A DNA stretch of 22,727 nt, from positions 1 through 22,727 of the IMG/VR virus record IMGVR_UViG_3300043466_002016; one strand, written 5' to 3'. Shown here one piece after another: positions 4,046 through 16,700 of this stretch (position 1 is the first letter of the stretch; every line of letters begins with the position of its first letter). Below the pieces are notes generated by a model. That model worked only from the letters and a program-made list of their open reading frames with translations. It was not told where the DNA came from and did not search any database. The DNA comes from a virus. A program made the translations under genes and the position numbers.

Positions 4046-4255
4046 CTAATTTCCACCGTGTTGAAAACATTTTGAATTCATACTCAGGGTGAAGTTTCTA
4101 CAACGAACACCTGATTGAGTATTACTGATACATTGAACTGAGGTTGTTCTCTTTTGACTGTTTGTGACAGTTGTTCCTGTTGGAGTTACAAGATCAGACT
4201 TAGAACAAGATACCATTGTGATTGAGGCGATCACGACCATAAGTAATTTTTTCAT
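4046..4255 (-). CDS. Small phage lipoprotein with a Cys/His knuckle
   Basis: The 69-residue precursor starts MKKLLMVVIASITMVSCSKSD, a short signal peptide with a lipobox ending at Cys17. The mature protein would be lipid-anchored, and Ser-Lys after the Cys fits Bacteroidota lipoproteins. The mature part has a Thr/Ser-rich linker and a compact motif CISNTQSGVRC... KCFQHGGN. Its three Cys and one His are spaced like a small zinc knuckle (C-x3-T-x2-G-x2-C-x9-K-C-x2-H). This knuckle is familiar as a stand-alone module in small phage proteins. A cell-surface location suggests superinfection exclusion or masking of the host, but that is inference. It is the last gene before a terminator. Confidence 0.75.
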   Translation of the reverse strand: MKKLLMVVIASITMVSCSKSDLVTPTGTTVTNSQKRTTSVQCISNTQSGVRCRNFTLSMNSKCFQHGGN

Positions 4256-4269
4256 GTTGTTATATTTTT

Positions 4270-4626
4270 TTACGAAGTTACTAAATTATTTGATTCCACC
4301 AATTCTAATTCAGGTTTGTAAGAGTTTTCGTCTGAAACCACATACTCATCATTGACCCTAACAGAGTCAATTTGGTACCACGTACCTCTGTTTAGATTAC
4401 ACGTAGGACGAATTCTGACCTTGATTTCTTGATCCTTGAAAGTGTATACAAGTGATTTTAATTCTTTGTCCCAAAAACTATTTTTTAATCTACCATAAAC
4501 TGATGATGGTAAGAAATTTTTTTTCACAGTCTTCATAAGTTTGTCTGCAAGTTCATCATAAGATAAATCCCATGTGTTATGAACTTTGAAAGATGCTCTG
4601 ATTGTAAAGTCGTTATATTTTTCCAT
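4270..4626 (-). CDS. Hypothetical protein, 118 aa
   Basis: This soluble mixed alpha/beta protein is rich in Lys, Tyr and Trp, with no signal peptide or membrane segment. The N-terminal part (residues 1-60) looks helical. The middle (VYTFKDQEIKVRIRPTC) and QIDSVRVNDEYVVSD look like beta strands. I do not recognise a family. ATG at 4626 is preceded by an A-rich leader ending AAATAACAACT, shared with the genes starting at 7287 and 8303. It is one of a series of small, probably early, host-interaction genes. Confidence 0.7.
   Translation of the reverse strand: MEKYNDFTIRASFKVHNTWDLSYDELADKLMKTVKKNFLPSSVYGRLKNSFWDKELKSLVYTFKDQEIKVRIRPTCNLNRGTWYQIDSVRVNDEYVVSDENSYKPELELVESNNLVTS
4273..4302 (-). 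promoter_or_regulatory. Probable promoter of the lipoprotein gene
   Basis: On the minus strand TTG (4302-4300) is followed after 19 bases by TAACTTCG (4280-4273), one base from TAnnTTTG. The start codon is 17 bases downstream of the box, after an A-rich leader ending ATAACAAC. Confidence 0.5.
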
Positions 4627-4631
4627 AGTTG

Positions 4632-4853
4632 TTATTTTTTTAAAAATTTAGAATTAGATTTTTCCATTGATAACATTGATTCATACATCTCAACAATTTG
4701 TTCTTTGGTGAACAATAACATTAGATCTTCTGATGTCTTTCTTGTGTCAGATTGTGCGTTAACTCCAACATACATAATGTTCTCATCCATAGTTTCAGAA
4801 TAAGTGAATTGTGTTGTGTGGATGTCGTTGATACCGTAGAATTTAGTTTTCAT
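4632..4853 (-). CDS. Hypothetical protein, 73 aa
   Basis: This small acidic protein begins MKTKFYGINDIHTTQF and ends in a Lys/Ser-rich tail (SKFLKK). The middle segment TSEDLMLLFTKEQIVEMYESMLSMEK is a likely amphipathic helix pair. I recognise no family. Its leader shares an identical 24-base block (4855-4878) with the next gene upstream (5172-5195), including a TACCTTTG promoter-like box. The stop is 5 bases before the ATG of the 118-residue protein at 4626. Confidence 0.65.
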   Translation of the reverse strand: MKTKFYGINDIHTTQFTYSETMDENIMYVGVNAQSDTRKTSEDLMLLFTKEQIVEMYESMLSMEKSNSKFLKK

Positions 4854-4869
4854 GGTGTGATTGTTTTTA

Positions 4870-4877
4870 CAAAGGTA
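4870..4877 (-). promoter_or_regulatory. TACCTTTG -7 box before the gene starting at 4853
   Basis: The minus strand reads TACCTTTG, a full match to the Bacteroidota -7 consensus TAnnTTTG, 16 bases before the ATG. No TTTG is seen at the expected -33 position. The box is part of a 24-base block repeated exactly at 5172-5195. Confidence 0.45.
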
Positions 4878-4882
4878 ATGAA

Positions 4883-5170
4883 TTATTCTGAATCATCAGA
4901 AAATATTTTTTGTTTTCCTTTCTCGATCAAATCATCCATCTCATTACTCCAATGACCGTAATCATAATCTACGACATAGAAGTTATCGATCACCACAGAA
5001 ATGTCGTGTTTGTTTTGTTCAACGAATAAATCTAATACTCTCATAAAATCCTCATCATCTTCATACTTGTATTCAAGAATTTCAGTTACACTTTGTTTGG
5101 TGTGAATTGTACCTGTCACAAAGTCAGGGTGTTGTTGGATTTCTTTCCAAAGATCATTGATGTTTTTCAT
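4883..5170 (-). CDS. Hypothetical acidic protein, 95 aa
   Basis: This strongly acidic protein begins MKNINDLWKEIQQHPDF and ends IFSDDSE. It has Asp/Glu runs (YKYEDDEDFMRVLDLF) and an aromatic segment NFYVVDYDYGHWSNEMDDL. The HPDF...GTIHTKQSV start could be a helix and beta strand. The size and charge resemble small phage DNA-mimic or inhibitor proteins, but nothing more specific supports that. The upstream leader carries a TACCTTTG box and is nearly identical to that of its downstream neighbour. Confidence 0.65.
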   Translation of the reverse strand: MKNINDLWKEIQQHPDFVTGTIHTKQSVTEILEYKYEDDEDFMRVLDLFVEQNKHDISVVIDNFYVVDYDYGHWSNEMDDLIEKGKQKIFSDDSE

Positions 5171-5186
5171 AGTGTGATTGTTTTTA

Positions 5187-5194
5187 CAAAGGTA
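5187..5194 (-). promoter_or_regulatory. TACCTTTG -7 box before the gene starting at 5170
   Basis: This full TAnnTTTG match lies on the minus strand, 16 bases before the ATG, inside the 24-base block shared with 4855-4878. A -33 TTTG is not evident. Confidence 0.45.
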
Positions 5195-5200
5195 AGGAAA

Positions 5201-5431
5201 TTATTCTGATATTATGAAATCTTTATTCAATGAATTTTTAACTAAATGTTCAAATTCTTGGGTAATGGAATCAGTGTCAAATAATATTTCACCTTCTTCA
5301 TCTTCACCCCAATAGATCGGTTGAATGATATATCCACCAACTTGTACGGGACCAAATTCATAAGTTTTACTTCTGTGTAATTCTAATTTGGTTAATAACT
5401 TTTCGAGTTGTAATACTTCTGTGTTTGTCAT
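5201..5431 (-). CDS. Hypothetical protein, 76 aa, related to the 67-aa protein at 11676
   Basis: An N-terminal helix (residues 1-22) is followed by a beta region with QPIYWGEDEEGEILFDTDSI and a final helix EFEHLVKNSL. The pattern PIY-(5 residues)-D/E-G-(3-4)-DT-x-S-(3-4)-EF also occurs in the product of 11676-11879 on the other strand, so the two are probably distant paralogues. No function is known. It has its own well-matched promoter (5451-5481) and a very short leader. Confidence 0.65.
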   Translation of the reverse strand: MTNTEVLQLEKLLTKLELHRSKTYEFGPVQVGGYIIQPIYWGEDEEGEILFDTDSITQEFEHLVKNSLNKDFIISE

Positions 5432-5450
5432 AGTGTGTTTGTTAAGGACA

Positions 5451-5481
5451 CAAAACTACATCAAGTTTTTCATTCTACCAA
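5451..5481 (-). promoter_or_regulatory. Bacteroidota-type promoter for the gene starting at 5431
   Basis: On the minus strand TTG (5481-5479) is followed after exactly 20 bases by TAGTTTTG (5458-5451), a full TAnnTTTG match. It lies inside the end of the upstream gene and gives a leader of roughly a dozen bases. Confidence 0.65.
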
Positions 5482-5797
5482 GTTTTCTTTGAAGTTTTTT
5501 TTGTAAACGAATAAGGATATCAGATTTCTCATACTCTTCATCCTTTTCTGTCTGAGAGATGAGAGTATCCATTGAATCTAAATAAAGGTAAATTAAGGTG
5601 GGATCTATTAAGAAATGTTTTTTATACATTGTAACAATAATATTTGTTATTTCATTCTTGTCCTTTTCTGGTAAAGAAAAATAACTTTCAATTGTTATAT
5701 TATATTTCTCATCTAATAATTTTGTTATATCCAATCTAGTTCTAGTAAGTAATTTATAAATATATCTTGGTGAGAGCGTTTCCCCCCCTCCCCCCAT
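5456..5797 (-). CDS. Hypothetical helical phage protein, 113 aa
   Basis: From ATG 5797 the product reads MGGGGETLSPRYIYKLL, then long helices: TRTRLDITKLLDEKYNI, EITNIIVTMYKKHFLIDP, LIYLYLDSMDTLISQ, and a Lys/Arg-rich C-terminus (IRLQKKLQRKLGRMK). I recall similar small proteins in other Bacteroidota phages but no assigned function. The start is uncertain. The frame stays open to 5920, but only a TTG exists there, and the predicted transcript begins near 5883, so ATG 5797 is the best in-frame start. The start region is very G-rich (six and seven G in a row). The leader upstream contains two out-of-frame ATGs. Confidence 0.6.
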   Translation of the reverse strand: MGGGGETLSPRYIYKLLTRTRLDITKLLDEKYNITIESYFSLPEKDKNEITNIIVTMYKKHFLIDPTLIYLYLDSMDTLISQTEKDEEYEKSDILIRLQKKLQRKLGRMKNLM

Positions 5798-5889
5798 TCG
5801 TGAAAATGAAGATAGAGAGGGAGGAATATCTTGGACCAAGTTGACAGGTTTACCCCCATTATCCGTCAGTGCATGGATTGATCTGATTA

Positions 5890-5920
5890 TAAATATATTC
5901 AAATTAAAAAAAAGTTTCAA
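5890..5920 (-). promoter_or_regulatory. Probable promoter for the gene starting at 5797
   Basis: On the minus strand TTG (5920-5918) is followed after 20 bases by TATATTTA (5897-5890), one base short of TAnnTTTG. Transcription would start near 5883 and leave an 86-base leader before ATG 5797. Confidence 0.5.
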
Positions 5921-5955
5921 GTGGATTTTTATTTTTTTTTCAGTATTTATTAAAA

Positions 5956-5974
5956 ACGATTTAGAGACGATTTA
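5956..5974 (+). repeat. Direct repeat ACGATTTA, 11-base period, upstream of 5994
   Basis: ACGATTTA occurs at 5956-5963 and 5967-5974, one helical turn apart, in the divergent gap before the zinc-finger gene. It could be an operator; no matching promoter box was found for the plus-strand gene, so this is tentative. Confidence 0.3.
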
Positions 5975-5993
5975 AGACACTTAAAATTATTAG

Positions 5994-6440
5994 ATGAGAA
6001 CACGTAAGGAAAATGAAATATACAGGACTGATGAGGATGGGAACCGTCTCTGTAAGAAATGTAAGTATACTAAACCACATACTAATTTTTATAAATGTCC
6101 CAAACGTGAAGGTGGTTTAATGTATGTCTGTAAAAGTTGTTTTCGTTCAACAGACCGATCAACCATCAAGGTGAACCCAAAACCCAAGATTGACCATAAA
6201 ACGTATTTAAAGTCTCTTCCTGAGGTTCAAATGGCGAGGATGACACAATGTTCCAAAGAAGATTATTTGTTCATGTATGAGTTCCTGAGACGTGTTGGTT
6301 ACGATCCTAATGGTAACATTGGATTACAGTTCTCAGAAAGACATGGAACGGTATACCAAGAAAGGAAAAGATTGGATCAAAATTTGTATCTACCTGATGG
6401 AAATAAAAATCCCCTCCATAGATCATGGAAGGGACTTTGA
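5994..6440 (+). CDS. Zinc-finger protein of unknown function
   Basis: The 148-residue protein carries a four-cysteine zinc ribbon: C20-x2-C23 (LCKKCKYTKPHTNFYK) and C46-x2-C49 (VCKSCF). The spacing and the TKPHTNFYK segment match the N-terminal finger common in phage endonuclease-VII- and HNH-type proteins. No HNH or ββα-metal catalytic core is visible in the rest (YLFMYEFLRRVGYDPNGNIG and a basic C-terminus), so nuclease activity is not supported. It is a lone plus-strand gene between minus-strand genes, as is common for acquired single genes. Its last 30 bases also contain the hairpin that probably terminates the opposing gene. Confidence 0.7.
   Translation: MRTRKENEIYRTDEDGNRLCKKCKYTKPHTNFYKCPKREGGLMYVCKSCFRSTDRSTIKVNPKPKIDHKTYLKSLPEVQMARMTQCSKEDYLFMYEFLRRVGYDPNGNIGLQFSERHGTVYQERKRLDQNLYLPDGNKNPLHRSWKGL
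6401..6433 (-). terminator. Terminator for the minus-strand gene at 6459-6911
   Basis: On the minus strand CCCTTCCAT (6433-6425) pairs with ATGGAGGGG (6419-6411), with one mismatch, around a GATC loop, and is followed by ATTTTTATTT. It lies within the 3' end of the convergent plus-strand gene. Confidence 0.55.
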
Positions 6441-9047: not shown

Positions 9048-9998
9048 ATGAAAAAATTAAAAGTATTATCACTGTTTTCAGGATACGGAACTCAGGAACT
9101 TGGGTTGAAGTATCTTGGAGTTGACTATGAGATGGTTGGTCATTCGGATATATGTCCGAAGGTAAATAAAGTATATGACTCATTACATAAAACAAGTAAT
9201 GGTAATCTCGGTGATATTACCAAGATAACTCGTTTACCTGAGTGTGATCTGTTAACCTACTCATTCCCATGTCAGGATATTAGTATATCAGGAAAACAAA
9301 GGGGAGTGGTTCCTGGAACAAGATCAGGACTACTCTTAGAAGTTGAAAGGTTATTACAAGAAACTCAACCCACTTATTTGTTTATGGAGAATGTTAAAAA
9401 CCTTCTATCCAAAAAACATTTCCCTGTATTGAAATCTCACATCTCACTTCTTAATGGATTGGGATACGGTTGTTCTTATAAGTTATTAAACGGATCGAAG
9501 TATGGTTGTCCTCAGAACAGGGAACGTGTCTTTATGATGTCCGTTAAAGGTAAGACAAATGAAGAGGTTGAATCATTAATGAATTTGGTCCATCAAGATG
9601 TTGTACCAAAGGTCCCAATGAGAAACTTTTTGGAAAACAATGTTGATCCTAAATTGTATATCAATAGTCCTTACACACCACACACACCAAAGATAAACTC
9701 TGTATGTAGGTTGGTAGGTATTAGAAATGATGTTAAGTATGAACAATCTCAAAGGATCTATTCAATCGATCATTGTTCACCAACATTAACCAAATGTGGA
9801 TCACCTCAATTACTTATGGATGATGGACGTTTCAGAAATATAACATCAAGAGAGGCGTTCAGATTCATGGGTGTTAGAGATGAAGATATAGATGTAATTT
9901 TAACCAACGGATTAACAACAAGAATGTATTGGAACATTGCGGGTAGATCAATCTGTGTTCCTGTCGTTATGAGTATATTCAGTAAATTTTTTGTATGA
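9048..9998 (+). CDS. DNA cytosine-C5 methyltransferase family, motif X Asn replaced by Arg; candidate carboxymethyltransferase
   Basis: The 316-residue protein carries the C5-MTase motifs in order: I LSLFSGYGTQELGL (7-20), IV FPCQD with catalytic Cys75, VI FMENV with Glu114, VIII QNRERV (156-161), IX region SPTLTKCGSPQLL and RNITSREAFRFMG, and X AGRSICVPV (298-306). Residue 300 in motif X is Arg, where the family has Asn (GNS/GNA). In M.MpeI, changing this Asn (N374) to Lys lets the enzyme use carboxy-SAM and make 5-carboxymethylcytosine (known from memory). With a CmoA homologue two genes downstream, I infer a natural carboxymethyltransferase. The target-recognition part between motifs VIII and IX is short, about 80 residues, so the site cannot be predicted. 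No restriction enzyme is adjacent. The gene's TGA overlaps the next ATG (ATGA, 9995-9998). Confidence 0.93.
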   Translation: MKKLKVLSLFSGYGTQELGLKYLGVDYEMVGHSDICPKVNKVYDSLHKTSNGNLGDITKITRLPECDLLTYSFPCQDISISGKQRGVVPGTRSGLLLEVERLLQETQPTYLFMENVKNLLSKKHFPVLKSHISLLNGLGYGCSYKLLNGSKYGCPQNRERVFMMSVKGKTNEEVESLMNLVHQDVVPKVPMRNFLENNVDPKLYINSPYTPHTPKINSVCRLVGIRNDVKYEQSQRIYSIDHCSPTLTKCGSPQLLMDDGRFRNITSREAFRFMGVRDEDIDVILTNGLTTRMYWNIAGRSICVPVVMSIFSKFFV

Positions 9999-10810
9999 AA
10001 CCAAATGTTAAAAAAGTAATTCATGATTGTATATCTAATATTCCTGATAACGAAATCGCATTATGTTTATCAAGTGGTATAGATAGTAATTCACTTTTAT
10101 TTGAATTATTGGAACAAGATAAAAAAGTAACTGCGTTTACTTTTACAATGGAGGGTGTTGTTAGTAGAGATTTTATACATGCAAAAAAAAATTGTGAAAT
10201 CTTTGGTATAGAATTGGTTCACATAGAATTACCAACTGATATGGAAAAAATTAAAAAAGACATTTATACTCTTGCACGTCTTGGTGCCAGAAGTAAAACT
10301 GATTTTGAATGTTTTTTTCCATTCTTATATTTGTATAATCACCCCAAATTAACTCAGAAATATATTGTGAGTGGATTGGGTGCAGATGGTCATTTTTGTA
10401 TTTCTAAAAAAGGAATGATACATTTCAAGGATACTCGTATAGATGAATTCCGTGAATTATTATTTTCAAAACCCAATTACGCACAAAAGAATTTACATGA
10501 CGATTATTGTAAAAAAATTGGAAAAATACATATAACACCATTCTTAACACAAGAAATGATTAATGAGTTCAAGGGTACAACATGGGAACAAATAAATAAA
10601 CCAAAAGAAAAACAACCGATTTTAGATTCTTATGTTGATTGGTTTAATAAGATAAAAGTTTTTTCCCATACCAATTTTCAAAAAGGTGATAGTCAAATAT
10701 CAACTACTTTTTTAGAATTGACAAAAACAGATATAAATAAGAAACAACATAAAACACAAGTTGGTATCTTTAACGATATTATTCGTGAAGTAACTAATGA
10801 AAAAATTTAA
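9995..10810 (+). CDS. Asparagine-synthetase-type PP-loop ATP pyrophosphatase without glutaminase domain
   Basis: The 271-residue protein has a PP-loop LSSGIDS at 25-31, the adenylating ATP site. SGLGADGHF at 126-134 matches the SGxGADE(L)F motif of asparagine-synthetase-type synthetases (Glu is Gly here). A C-terminal segment KQPILDSYVDWFNKI, followed by a Lys/Gln stretch (FQKGDSQIS), resembles the same family. The N-terminal Cys-dependent glutaminase domain of AsnB is absent. Family chemistry is carboxylate activation as an acyl-adenylate and attack by an amine. I infer it amidates a carboxymethyl group on DNA made by its neighbours; the amine donor (ammonia or another amine) is unknown. It overlaps the methyltransferase by 4 bases and lies 2 bases before the CmoA-like gene. 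By eye it is more AT-rich than its neighbours. Confidence 0.75.
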   Translation: MKPNVKKVIHDCISNIPDNEIALCLSSGIDSNSLLFELLEQDKKVTAFTFTMEGVVSRDFIHAKKNCEIFGIELVHIELPTDMEKIKKDIYTLARLGARSKTDFECFFPFLYLYNHPKLTQKYIVSGLGADGHFCISKKGMIHFKDTRIDEFRELLFSKPNYAQKNLHDDYCKKIGKIHITPFLTQEMINEFKGTTWEQINKPKEKQPILDSYVDWFNKIKVFSHTNFQKGDSQISTTFLELTKTDINKKQHKTQVGIFNDIIREVTNEKI

Positions 10811-10812
10811 CA

Positions 10813-11451
10813 ATGGAAAAACTATTTGACTTTAACAAGATTAATGATTTTGATGATCACATCAATAAGAGTATTCCCAATTACGATTTGTTAATTGAGA
10901 TGATCAAAAGTATGAGTGAGTATTTTTACACACCCAATGGATCCATTTATGATCTTGGTTGTTCGACTGGTAAATTATTGAAGTCATTGAATTTTAATTG
11001 TAAAAAATACGGATACGATAACTCAACATTATTACCTGATGATTCACAATCAATCAACTTTGAAACTCATGATCTAAATCAGAAGTTCCCGATCAGTAAT
11101 GCGTGTTTGGTGTATAGTATCTTTACAATGCAGTTTCTTGATCCAATGAAGAGGAAACAATACCTGTCACAGATATACGAAGGAATGATTCCTGGTGGGT
11201 GTTTATTCATAACTGAGAAGATCTATCAAGAACACGGAATATCACAAGAGATATTTTCATTCAGTCATTACGATTTCAAATTGAAACAATTCTCAGGTAA
11301 TGAGATTTTGAAGAAGGAAAAAGACCTGAGATATAATATGAAACCATTACATGATACAGAATTATTACATATATTAAAATCAACAGGATTCAAAGTTGTA
11401 ACCCCATTTTTCCAAATGTTTAATTTTAAAGGATTTATTTGTATAAGATAA
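10813..11451 (+). CDS. cmoA: CmoA-like carboxy-SAM synthase (class I SAM fold)
   Basis: The 212-residue protein aligns along its length with E. coli CmoA (247 aa), recalled from memory. Matches are INKSIPNYDLLIEMIKSM (SRSVPGYSNIISMIGML), the SAM loop IYDLGCSTG (VYDLGCSLG), IFTMQFLDP (NFTLQFLEP), IYEGMIPGGCLFITEK (IYQGLNPGGALVLSEK), HYDFK (HHDFK) and the C-terminal FFQMFNFKG (WFQCFNFGS). CmoA converts SAM and prephenate to carboxy-SAM; in bacteria CmoB then modifies tRNA U34, but no CmoB is present here. The E. coli Arg199 that I recall contacting the carboxylate aligns by hand with Glu169 in a KKEK stretch, so activity needs proof. The gene follows the synthetase by 2 bases and completes the cassette. 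Confidence 0.85.
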   Translation: MEKLFDFNKINDFDDHINKSIPNYDLLIEMIKSMSEYFYTPNGSIYDLGCSTGKLLKSLNFNCKKYGYDNSTLLPDDSQSINFETHDLNQKFPISNACLVYSIFTMQFLDPMKRKQYLSQIYEGMIPGGCLFITEKIYQEHGISQEIFSFSHYDFKLKQFSGNEILKKEKDLRYNMKPLHDTELLHILKSTGFKVVTPFFQMFNFKGFICIR

Positions 11452-15056: not shown

Positions 15057-16700
15057 TTAGTATTTTAAACCCCACTTATTTTTTAAATATGTATTCAAAT
15101 CACTTTGTTCCGTTGGTGTAAGTTCCCTTGTAAATATAAATACCTCACCAAGTTGACCTGCGAAGTCAGTTCCTGCTCCATCATAATTTAAAAGATTTAT
15201 CACACCACTATCAGTTGTATTTTGTATTGATCCATTATTAGATGTTATATTTTGTGTTGTTGCACTTGTGTTTACAATACAATAAGAAATTGCAGACGCT
15301 CCTGTTGTTGAAATAAACCACTGCATGGTTTGTCCTGAACTTGGGAATGTCACACCTGAATATTGTGCAGTTCTATTATTAGCACCATCTACATAAGTTC
15401 CTTGTATCGAATGTCTAAAATTATAAGGTGCTGTTGCAGATCTATTAAGTCCAAAATATTGTGATGAAGATACTGATCCATACTTATAAATAGGTGTCAT
15501 CGATGCAGTCTGTGCTGTTCCAAGACCACCAACTACTACAAAAACATTTAAGGTAGGTGAATTAAAATTAGTATTACTCTTTAATATATCGGTACTGAAT
15601 GTAACCGCAGAAACAGATGTTGTAAACGAAGTTCCTGATCCCCATAATGGTTGATCTGCCGCGGTTGATTGTGTAAACGCAGTTAATGAGACATCAGTTC
15701 CTTTATTAACAATTTTCTCAACATTTAATGTTCCTGATCTGAATGTAATTGTAGGTGATAATGTAGATGGATTAAATGGTGGAGTTGGACTTGGTGTATT
15801 AGTTATGGTTGGTGTATTAGTTGTGGTTGGTGTTTGAGTATTAGTAGGTGTTTGTGTTTGTGTTGGAGTCATTGTTTGACTGGCTGTAATGGATGGTGTT
15901 GGTGTCTGTGTATTAGTTGGTGTCTGTGTCATTGTAACACTTGGTGTTGGAGTCATTGTCTGACTTGCAGTGATACTCGGAGTTGGAGTCTGAGTTTGAC
16001 TTGCAGTGATACTCGGAGTTGGTGTTTGTGTCGGGGTTCCTGTTTGTGTCTGTGTATTCGTATTTGTAGGGGTCTGTGTGACCGTTGGAGTCTGAGTTGG
16101 TGTTTCTGTCTGACTTGGAGTAATGGACGGAGTAGGCGTGTTTGTAGGGGTATTGGTTGGTGTTGAACTATAAGTCAACGTTGGAGTATTTGTAGGTGTT
16201 GTTGTTTGAGTTTGTGTTTGTGTTGGAGTCTGAGTTGTTGTAGGTGTTTGAGTTGATGTTACGGTTGGAGTTGGAGATGGTGGATTTAATTCATCTGGCG
16301 CAAAAATATAGTTTGAGTTGATTTCATTATTAGAAACATACTCAACATAATAATCATTTGTTGTGTTTGCAGATTGTACAATAAGAAGTGCTTGACCTGA
16401 TTCAATAATACCAAGACTTAACGCAGGATCGAGATTTCCACTACCTTGTGTTTGTTGATAAATGCCATAGTTATAAAGTCCTTCATACGGGAACGCGATC
16501 TGACCCACACCTTGTCCTTCAACAAAATCAAATTCATCATATCTCGTCTTGTGAGTTGAAATATCTGTTGGAATGAAACGAACTTGTTGTTTAGAAAAAA
16601 TATGTGTGAAAGAAAATAACCATTCAGGATTCGATATCGTTGCGTTCTGTGATACAGTAACAACCATTGAATTCCTCTGACCCGTTTTAAGTAATATCAT
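15057..16700 (-). CDS. Virion fibre with Thr/Pro repeat and lectin-like C-terminal domain
   Basis: The 547-residue protein has three parts. Residues 1-139 form a beta-rich N-terminal domain ([19 protein letters not shown]... [10 protein letters not shown]), probably for attachment to the virion. Residues 140-310 are an extended Thr/Pro/Gln/Ser tract with recurring [11 protein letters not shown] units. Residues 311-547 look like a concanavalin-A/LamG-type beta sandwich ending in [20 protein letters not shown] and a final helix, as in many surface-displayed carbohydrate-binding domains. The tract likely works as a stiff or flexible stalk displaying the lectin to bind glycans. It lies between the tail tube and portal genes. 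A head or tail fibre are both possible. Confidence 0.75.
15771..16283 (-). repeat. Thr/Pro-rich short tandem repeat region
   Basis: This is the coding strand for about 171 residues of degenerate TP/TQ/TN units in the fibre gene, with four near-copies of [11 protein letters not shown] at residues 189-199, 229-237, 240-248 and 268-276. Codon variation keeps the DNA from being exactly repetitive, yet recombination could change stalk length. Confidence 0.8.

Follow-up and report, generated by a model that had tools for sequence, protein, structure and literature searches.

The closest described system is the CmoA-CmoX-CmoY pathway of the Synechococcus phage S-B43, in which CmoA provides carboxy-SAM (Cx-SAM), CmoX forms 5-carboxymethylcytosine (5cxmC), and CmoY joins glycine to this base (PMC12783734, December 2025). 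The wild-type CmoX of this phage (SpCmoX) takes Cx-SAM only. Its Arg350, which occupies the position of Asn304 in HhaI, contacts the carboxylate of the cofactor, and the R350N variant uses neither cofactor (PMC12783734). This arginine has already served as a signature, within the SPPC family only: a survey that filtered for SPPC plus Arg returned 5,615 CmoX candidates (PMC12783734). The second relevant system is engineered. The N374K variant of M.MpeI is a carboxymethyltransferase that uses carboxy-SAM (PMC12783734), a precedent that an earlier, sequence-only reading of the present locus had cited correctly.

The window analyzed here, 22,727 nucleotides long, corresponds to a linear virus record (22.7 kb) and includes genes for a terminase and a portal protein. 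The nearest relatives of these two genes are found in phages of Flavobacterium and Nonlabens, and a guess based on them makes a host within the Bacteroidota likely. On the plus strand, a nearly gapless run of three genes (9048-11451) encodes a C5-cytosine methyltransferase, an asparagine-synthetase-like protein, and a CmoA homologue. Scans for promoters and terminators gave results no better than shuffled sequences. Elsewhere, positions 15057-16700 of the minus strand encode a protein of 547 aa with a long Thr/Pro-rich repeat (TPTxT), possibly a structural linker.

The preferred reading, to which a probability of about 0.87 is assigned, is that the three genes form a phage DNA hypermodification cassette whose methyltransferase evolved convergently. 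The arginine, the neighboring genes, their co-distribution with it, and its separate origins are shown by the data below, whereas the chemistry and the function in the phage are predicted, as follows. CmoA would convert SAM and prephenate to Cx-SAM. This cofactor would be bound by the C5-methyltransferase, whose motif X residue Arg300 would make a salt bridge with the carboxylate. Cys75 would then attack C6 of cytosine, and the carboxymethyl group would be moved to C5 to give 5-carboxymethylcytosine. The asparagine-synthetase-like enzyme would adenylate the carboxylate and join an amine, probably glycine or another small amine, and the resulting amide-modified base would hide the phage DNA from host nucleases. 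The methyltransferase itself does not descend from the published CmoX family; it was derived from an ordinary M.MpeI-like enzyme by an Asn-to-Arg change, which had at least four such origins.

The locus shares with the S-B43 system the three predicted activities, the adjacency of the genes, the motif X arginine, and homologous CmoA and CmoY proteins. In contrast, the gene order is X-Y-A rather than A-Y-X, and the window methyltransferase, which is of the M.MpeI-like SFPC type, belongs to a different C5-methyltransferase family from the S-B43 CmoX of structure 8YF3. Because of this difference in family, the target sequence may differ from GC. The base composition of the window did not reveal a target, since the GC dinucleotide is depleted both in the window (strongly, rho 0.51) and in the Asn-type relatives (0.64) and is thus uninformative on specificity. 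The mechanism is of a known kind. The novelty lies in the window methyltransferase, which is, judging from its sequence, a separate and convergent version outside the SpCmoX clade.

Residue 300 of the window methyltransferase

The methyltransferase gene (9048..9998, plus strand) encodes a 316 aa protein that is matched by PF00145 (E 6e-56) and by TIGR00675 and is predicted to be an M.MpeI-like C5-cytosine methyltransferase acting as a CmoX-like carboxymethyltransferase. Motif IV (9261..9281, plus strand) reads S72-F73-P74-C75-Q76-D77-I78, contains the catalytic Cys75, and falls in invariant columns of the multiple alignment. Residues 296-307 are N-I-A-G-R-S-I-C-V-P-V-V. The proposal that motif X reads GRS, with Arg300 in place of the asparagine, was confirmed by the AGA codon at 9945..9947 on the plus strand and by alignment to M.MpeI and SpCmoX. 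When the enzyme is aligned to M.MpeI (8c56/4dkj) by phmmer, IAGNSIPVKILEAIF stops two residues short of chain residue 387, which places Arg300 exactly on Asn374. In the multiple alignment, Arg300 and SpCmoX Arg350 stand in one column, so that the comparison suggested with the original observation leaves the arginine in motif X.

The closest solved relative of the window enzyme, in both fold and sequence, is M.MpeI (E 8e-30). The AF2 model (pLDDT 87.2) has 4dkj as its top Foldseek match (TMq 0.85), compared with a TMq of 0.68 for SpCmoX (8yf3), to which local identity is only 24% with the C-terminal part outside the alignment. The position concerned is that changed in M.MpeI N374K, but the window enzyme carries a natural arginine instead of an engineered lysine, is shorter (316 vs 395-403 aa), and is linked to cmoA. 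Among the published features of CmoX, it possesses the C5-methyltransferase fold, the catalytic PC, intact ENV (114-116) and QxRxR (156-160) motifs, and arginine at the position of HhaI Asn304. It lacks the SPPC motif, having SFPC at 72-75, and common descent with SpCmoX among the Arg-type enzymes. The published survey filter would therefore miss this enzyme, which is predicted to work like CmoX, in both cofactor use and product, from outside its clade.

Arg300 is neither a sequencing error nor a chance oddity, because the same AGA codon is present in an independent sister contig (L082), whose methyltransferase is 96% identical, and asparagine occupies this site in 79/79 close relatives. Of the 162 columns that are conserved in the Asn-type relatives, 27 differ in the window and sister pair, 26 of them besides Arg300. 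Given these changed columns and the inactivity of SpCmoX R350N, arginine alone may be insufficient for Cx-SAM use. Two bases must change to convert AAY (Asn) to AGR (Arg), and lysine is the intermediate along one of the two possible routes. Natural lysine was not seen at the motif X site among the methyltransferases compared; lysine is the engineered state.

The predicted synthase and ligase

The CmoA homologue that had been noted two genes downstream of the methyltransferase was found at 10813..11451 on the plus strand. This putative carboxy-SAM synthase scores 123 bits against TIGR00740, compared with 115.6 for the proven SpCmoA, both under the curated value of 193.3, and the two proteins are 33% identical. 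The SAM-contact residues Y39, D62, G64, S66, D89, N90, D117, and E164 are kept, while N132 is not. In E. coli CmoA, the carboxylate is held by Arg199 (PMC3663124). This site is Glu in the window CmoA and in SpCmoA, both of which have Arg at 203. Since SpCmoA is active, the E. coli Arg199 criterion is unfit for phage CmoA. Among phage CmoA proteins, that of L086 (5962-6657) being among those compared, Arg at position 199 is found in PaBG and Y3. Glu, Gln, Ser, or Ala at 199 together with Arg at 203 is found in the window, S-B43, S-CRM01, Staphylococcus, and TurkishDelight proteins, and the L083 and Mcat8 proteins have Arg at neither position. CmoA is rare in the Bacteroidota, appearing above the cut-off in 6 of 148 genomes, so a host of that group would seldom supply Cx-SAM. 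As single queries in viral scans, the window CmoA and CmoY retrieved almost nothing besides the sister contig, and an alignment of seven CmoA sequences was too diverse for scanning.

Between the methyltransferase gene and cmoA lies a predicted CmoY-like ATP-dependent amide ligase (9995..10810, plus strand), an asparagine-synthetase-like PP-loop domain matched by PF00733 (29.1 bits, cut-off 21). It is 36% identical to SpCmoY, and the structural matches of its AF2 model (pLDDT 89.5) are asparagine and beta-lactam synthetases. The glutaminase domain is absent, which makes glutamine-derived ammonia unlikely as the amine.

The alternative that survives best concerns the last step only. Cx-SAM would be used, but the final base would be bare 5cxmC or an amide other than that of glycine. 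This outcome has a substantial, if minority, chance of being correct. The sister contig lacks the ligase gene (0.8 kb), and its cmoX directly overlaps cmoA, with a short AAATTT shared at the edges (L082 2300-2330 vs window 9970-10830). Likewise, S-CRM01 has cmoA and cmoX with no cmoY in the region. The ligase is thus an optional module, and the DNA of the sister phage may carry bare 5cxmC; ligase gain and ligase loss cannot be told apart in this pair. Moreover, ligase clusters with other active sites have been noted (PMC12783734), and the PP-loop of the window CmoY, LSSGIDS where most have LSGGxDS, is unlike that of SpCmoY. On the other hand, the window protein shares with SpCmoY the conserved blocks KTxFECxFPFLY, SGxGADG, and NKPxxKQ, and it has no glutaminase domain, both of which speak against this alternative.

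Arginine and cmoA among phage methyltransferases

Both domain models call the window protein a normal C5-methyltransferase. It could be an ordinary SAM-dependent 5mC enzyme with a tolerated substitution, in which case CmoA would act on tRNA or another substrate. The motif X asparagine, described in the sequence-only reading as near-invariant, is indeed common but not invariant. Among de-duplicated methyltransferases without cmoA, the counts are N 144, E 9, M 2, L 1, and G 1, so other residues do replace it. However, arginine is absent from the 79 closest relatives and segregates with cmoA across unrelated methyltransferase families. Additionally, a CmoY homologue stands between the window methyltransferase and cmoA, and a scan of the main genes of the window turned up no homologue of CmoB. 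Overall, an ordinary 5mC methyltransferase is improbable.

The segregation emerged from viral scans, the first of which was made by methyltransferase similarity and was blind to cmoA. It yielded 79 viral relatives with 57-63% identity to the window methyltransferase. Every one of them has Asn and is without a neighboring cmoA, and CmoA was not found elsewhere in their contigs, many of which are fragments. Among the M.MpeI-like SFPC relatives, Arg and cmoA occur together only in the window and the sister contig, where cmoA adjoins the methyltransferase. Within this family, cmoA accompanies 2/2 enzymes of the Arg type vs 0/100 of the non-Arg types. Two weak matches to PHROG 4752 in relatives were rejected as CmoA, being generic methyltransferases in glycosyltransferase gene clusters; this profile is too loose as a CmoA test (positive in 14/14 control genomes). 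Pattern scans for further SFPC enzymes of the Arg type returned the sister contig, a single transposase in reverse reading, and four more pattern matches, none of which yielded a methyltransferase.

A second blind scan started from a GTPC-type methyltransferase (L083). In this family, which gained the same Asn-to-Arg switch separately from the window enzyme, cmoA is present with 37 of the 41 distinct enzymes that have Arg and with none of the 27 that have Asn. Two of the four apparent exceptions (L285 and L308) lie on contigs (L370 and L369) without a separate cmoA, where a weakly scoring CmoA-like domain of almost complete length (25-29 bits) is embedded in very long reading frames of 1230-1507 aa, and the other two are on contigs of just 8.3 and 4.2 kb. 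In total, 95 of 99 distinct Arg-type methyltransferases have cmoA in the flank or in the same genome, and 157 of 162 non-Arg types are without it (Fisher p ~2e-59, relatedness not corrected). The SPPC set was largely gathered via cmoA and is therefore biased, a problem that does not affect the SFPC and GTPC sets. The existence of many Arg-type enzymes without cmoA, which the sequence-only reading had named as evidence against itself, was looked for, and just 4 were encountered. Its suggestion that arginine marks carboxymethyltransferases is supported by these large majorities, with an exception in some Staphylococcus phages, which pair cmoA with a Gly-type methyltransferase.

In giant phages of Erwinia and Yersinia (L173-L176, L268), cmoA lies near a ligase gene, and that region yielded no C5-methyltransferase. 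The Erwinia phage pEa_SNUABM_16 has an Arg-type methyltransferase about 17-18 kb from cmoA, a distance which indicates that local gene tables understate the linkage.

Origins of the motif X arginine

On a tree of 66 rows, no fewer than five changes along starred branches are required to explain the distribution of the Arg label. The SPPC, SFPC, GTPC, and GFPC families each gained it, and phage Melnitz, for which no cmoA was present in the region seen, switched to Leu. The SFPC Arg branch consists of two near-identical contigs only, and the GFPC gain lies on one long branch. All five independent pairs co-vary with cmoA, although five pairs cannot go below p 0.0625. A single Arg clade was rejected (AU p 2e-55; 3e-35 without L083), and placing every Arg row in one group carries a penalty of 223-237 log units. 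The window methyltransferase instead sits with the 57-63% identical Asn-type enzymes (clade support 100/100). Its descent from within the published CmoX (SPPC) family, as a divergent form co-inherited with cmoA and cmoY, is consequently very improbable: the 33-36% identity of its neighbors to the S-B43 proteins and the shared arginine would fit such descent, but the SFPC motif IV, the Asn-type nearest relatives, the cost of a single Arg clade, and the low identity to SpCmoX all argue against it.

It appears probable that natural DNA carboxymethyltransferases had at least four origins in unrelated C5-methyltransferase families (SPPC, SFPC/M.MpeI-like, GTPC, and GFPC), each by the same motif X Asn-to-Arg change in a phage with cmoA, with one loss in a phage without it. 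The CmoA-CmoY cassette would then be mobile, with a replaceable methyltransferase slot, and 5cxmC-type bases would be formed in several contexts, possibly CpG for the window type. The present data show that the switch engineered in M.MpeI was found repeatedly in nature and that arginine alone marks further families missed by the SPPC plus Arg filter. They provide a simple rule, open to testing, by which new carboxymethyltransferases that act on new DNA targets could be predicted, and which could be of use in DNA labelling and in reading phage DNA modification.

The arginine is a strong but not universal mark. In the Staphylococcus phages vB-SscS-F1 and SPbeta-like, cmoA adjoins the sole C5-methyltransferase, which has Gly at the motif X site, and no second C5-methyltransferase was found in the two complete Staphylococcus phage genomes. 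Arginine is therefore not strictly required. The Gly-type enzymes may have another role or may reveal a second way of holding Cx-SAM.

The cmoA-linked C5-methyltransferases of Staphylococcus and related phages (L087 7485-8492, L088 6654-7652, and L275-L278) have GSPC as motif IV and the same Gly (VGGVINQ). In one of these contigs (L275), an Arg-type (GFPC) and a Gly-type methyltransferase are encoded side by side (4143-4988 and 5016-6011), together with cmoA and cmoY.
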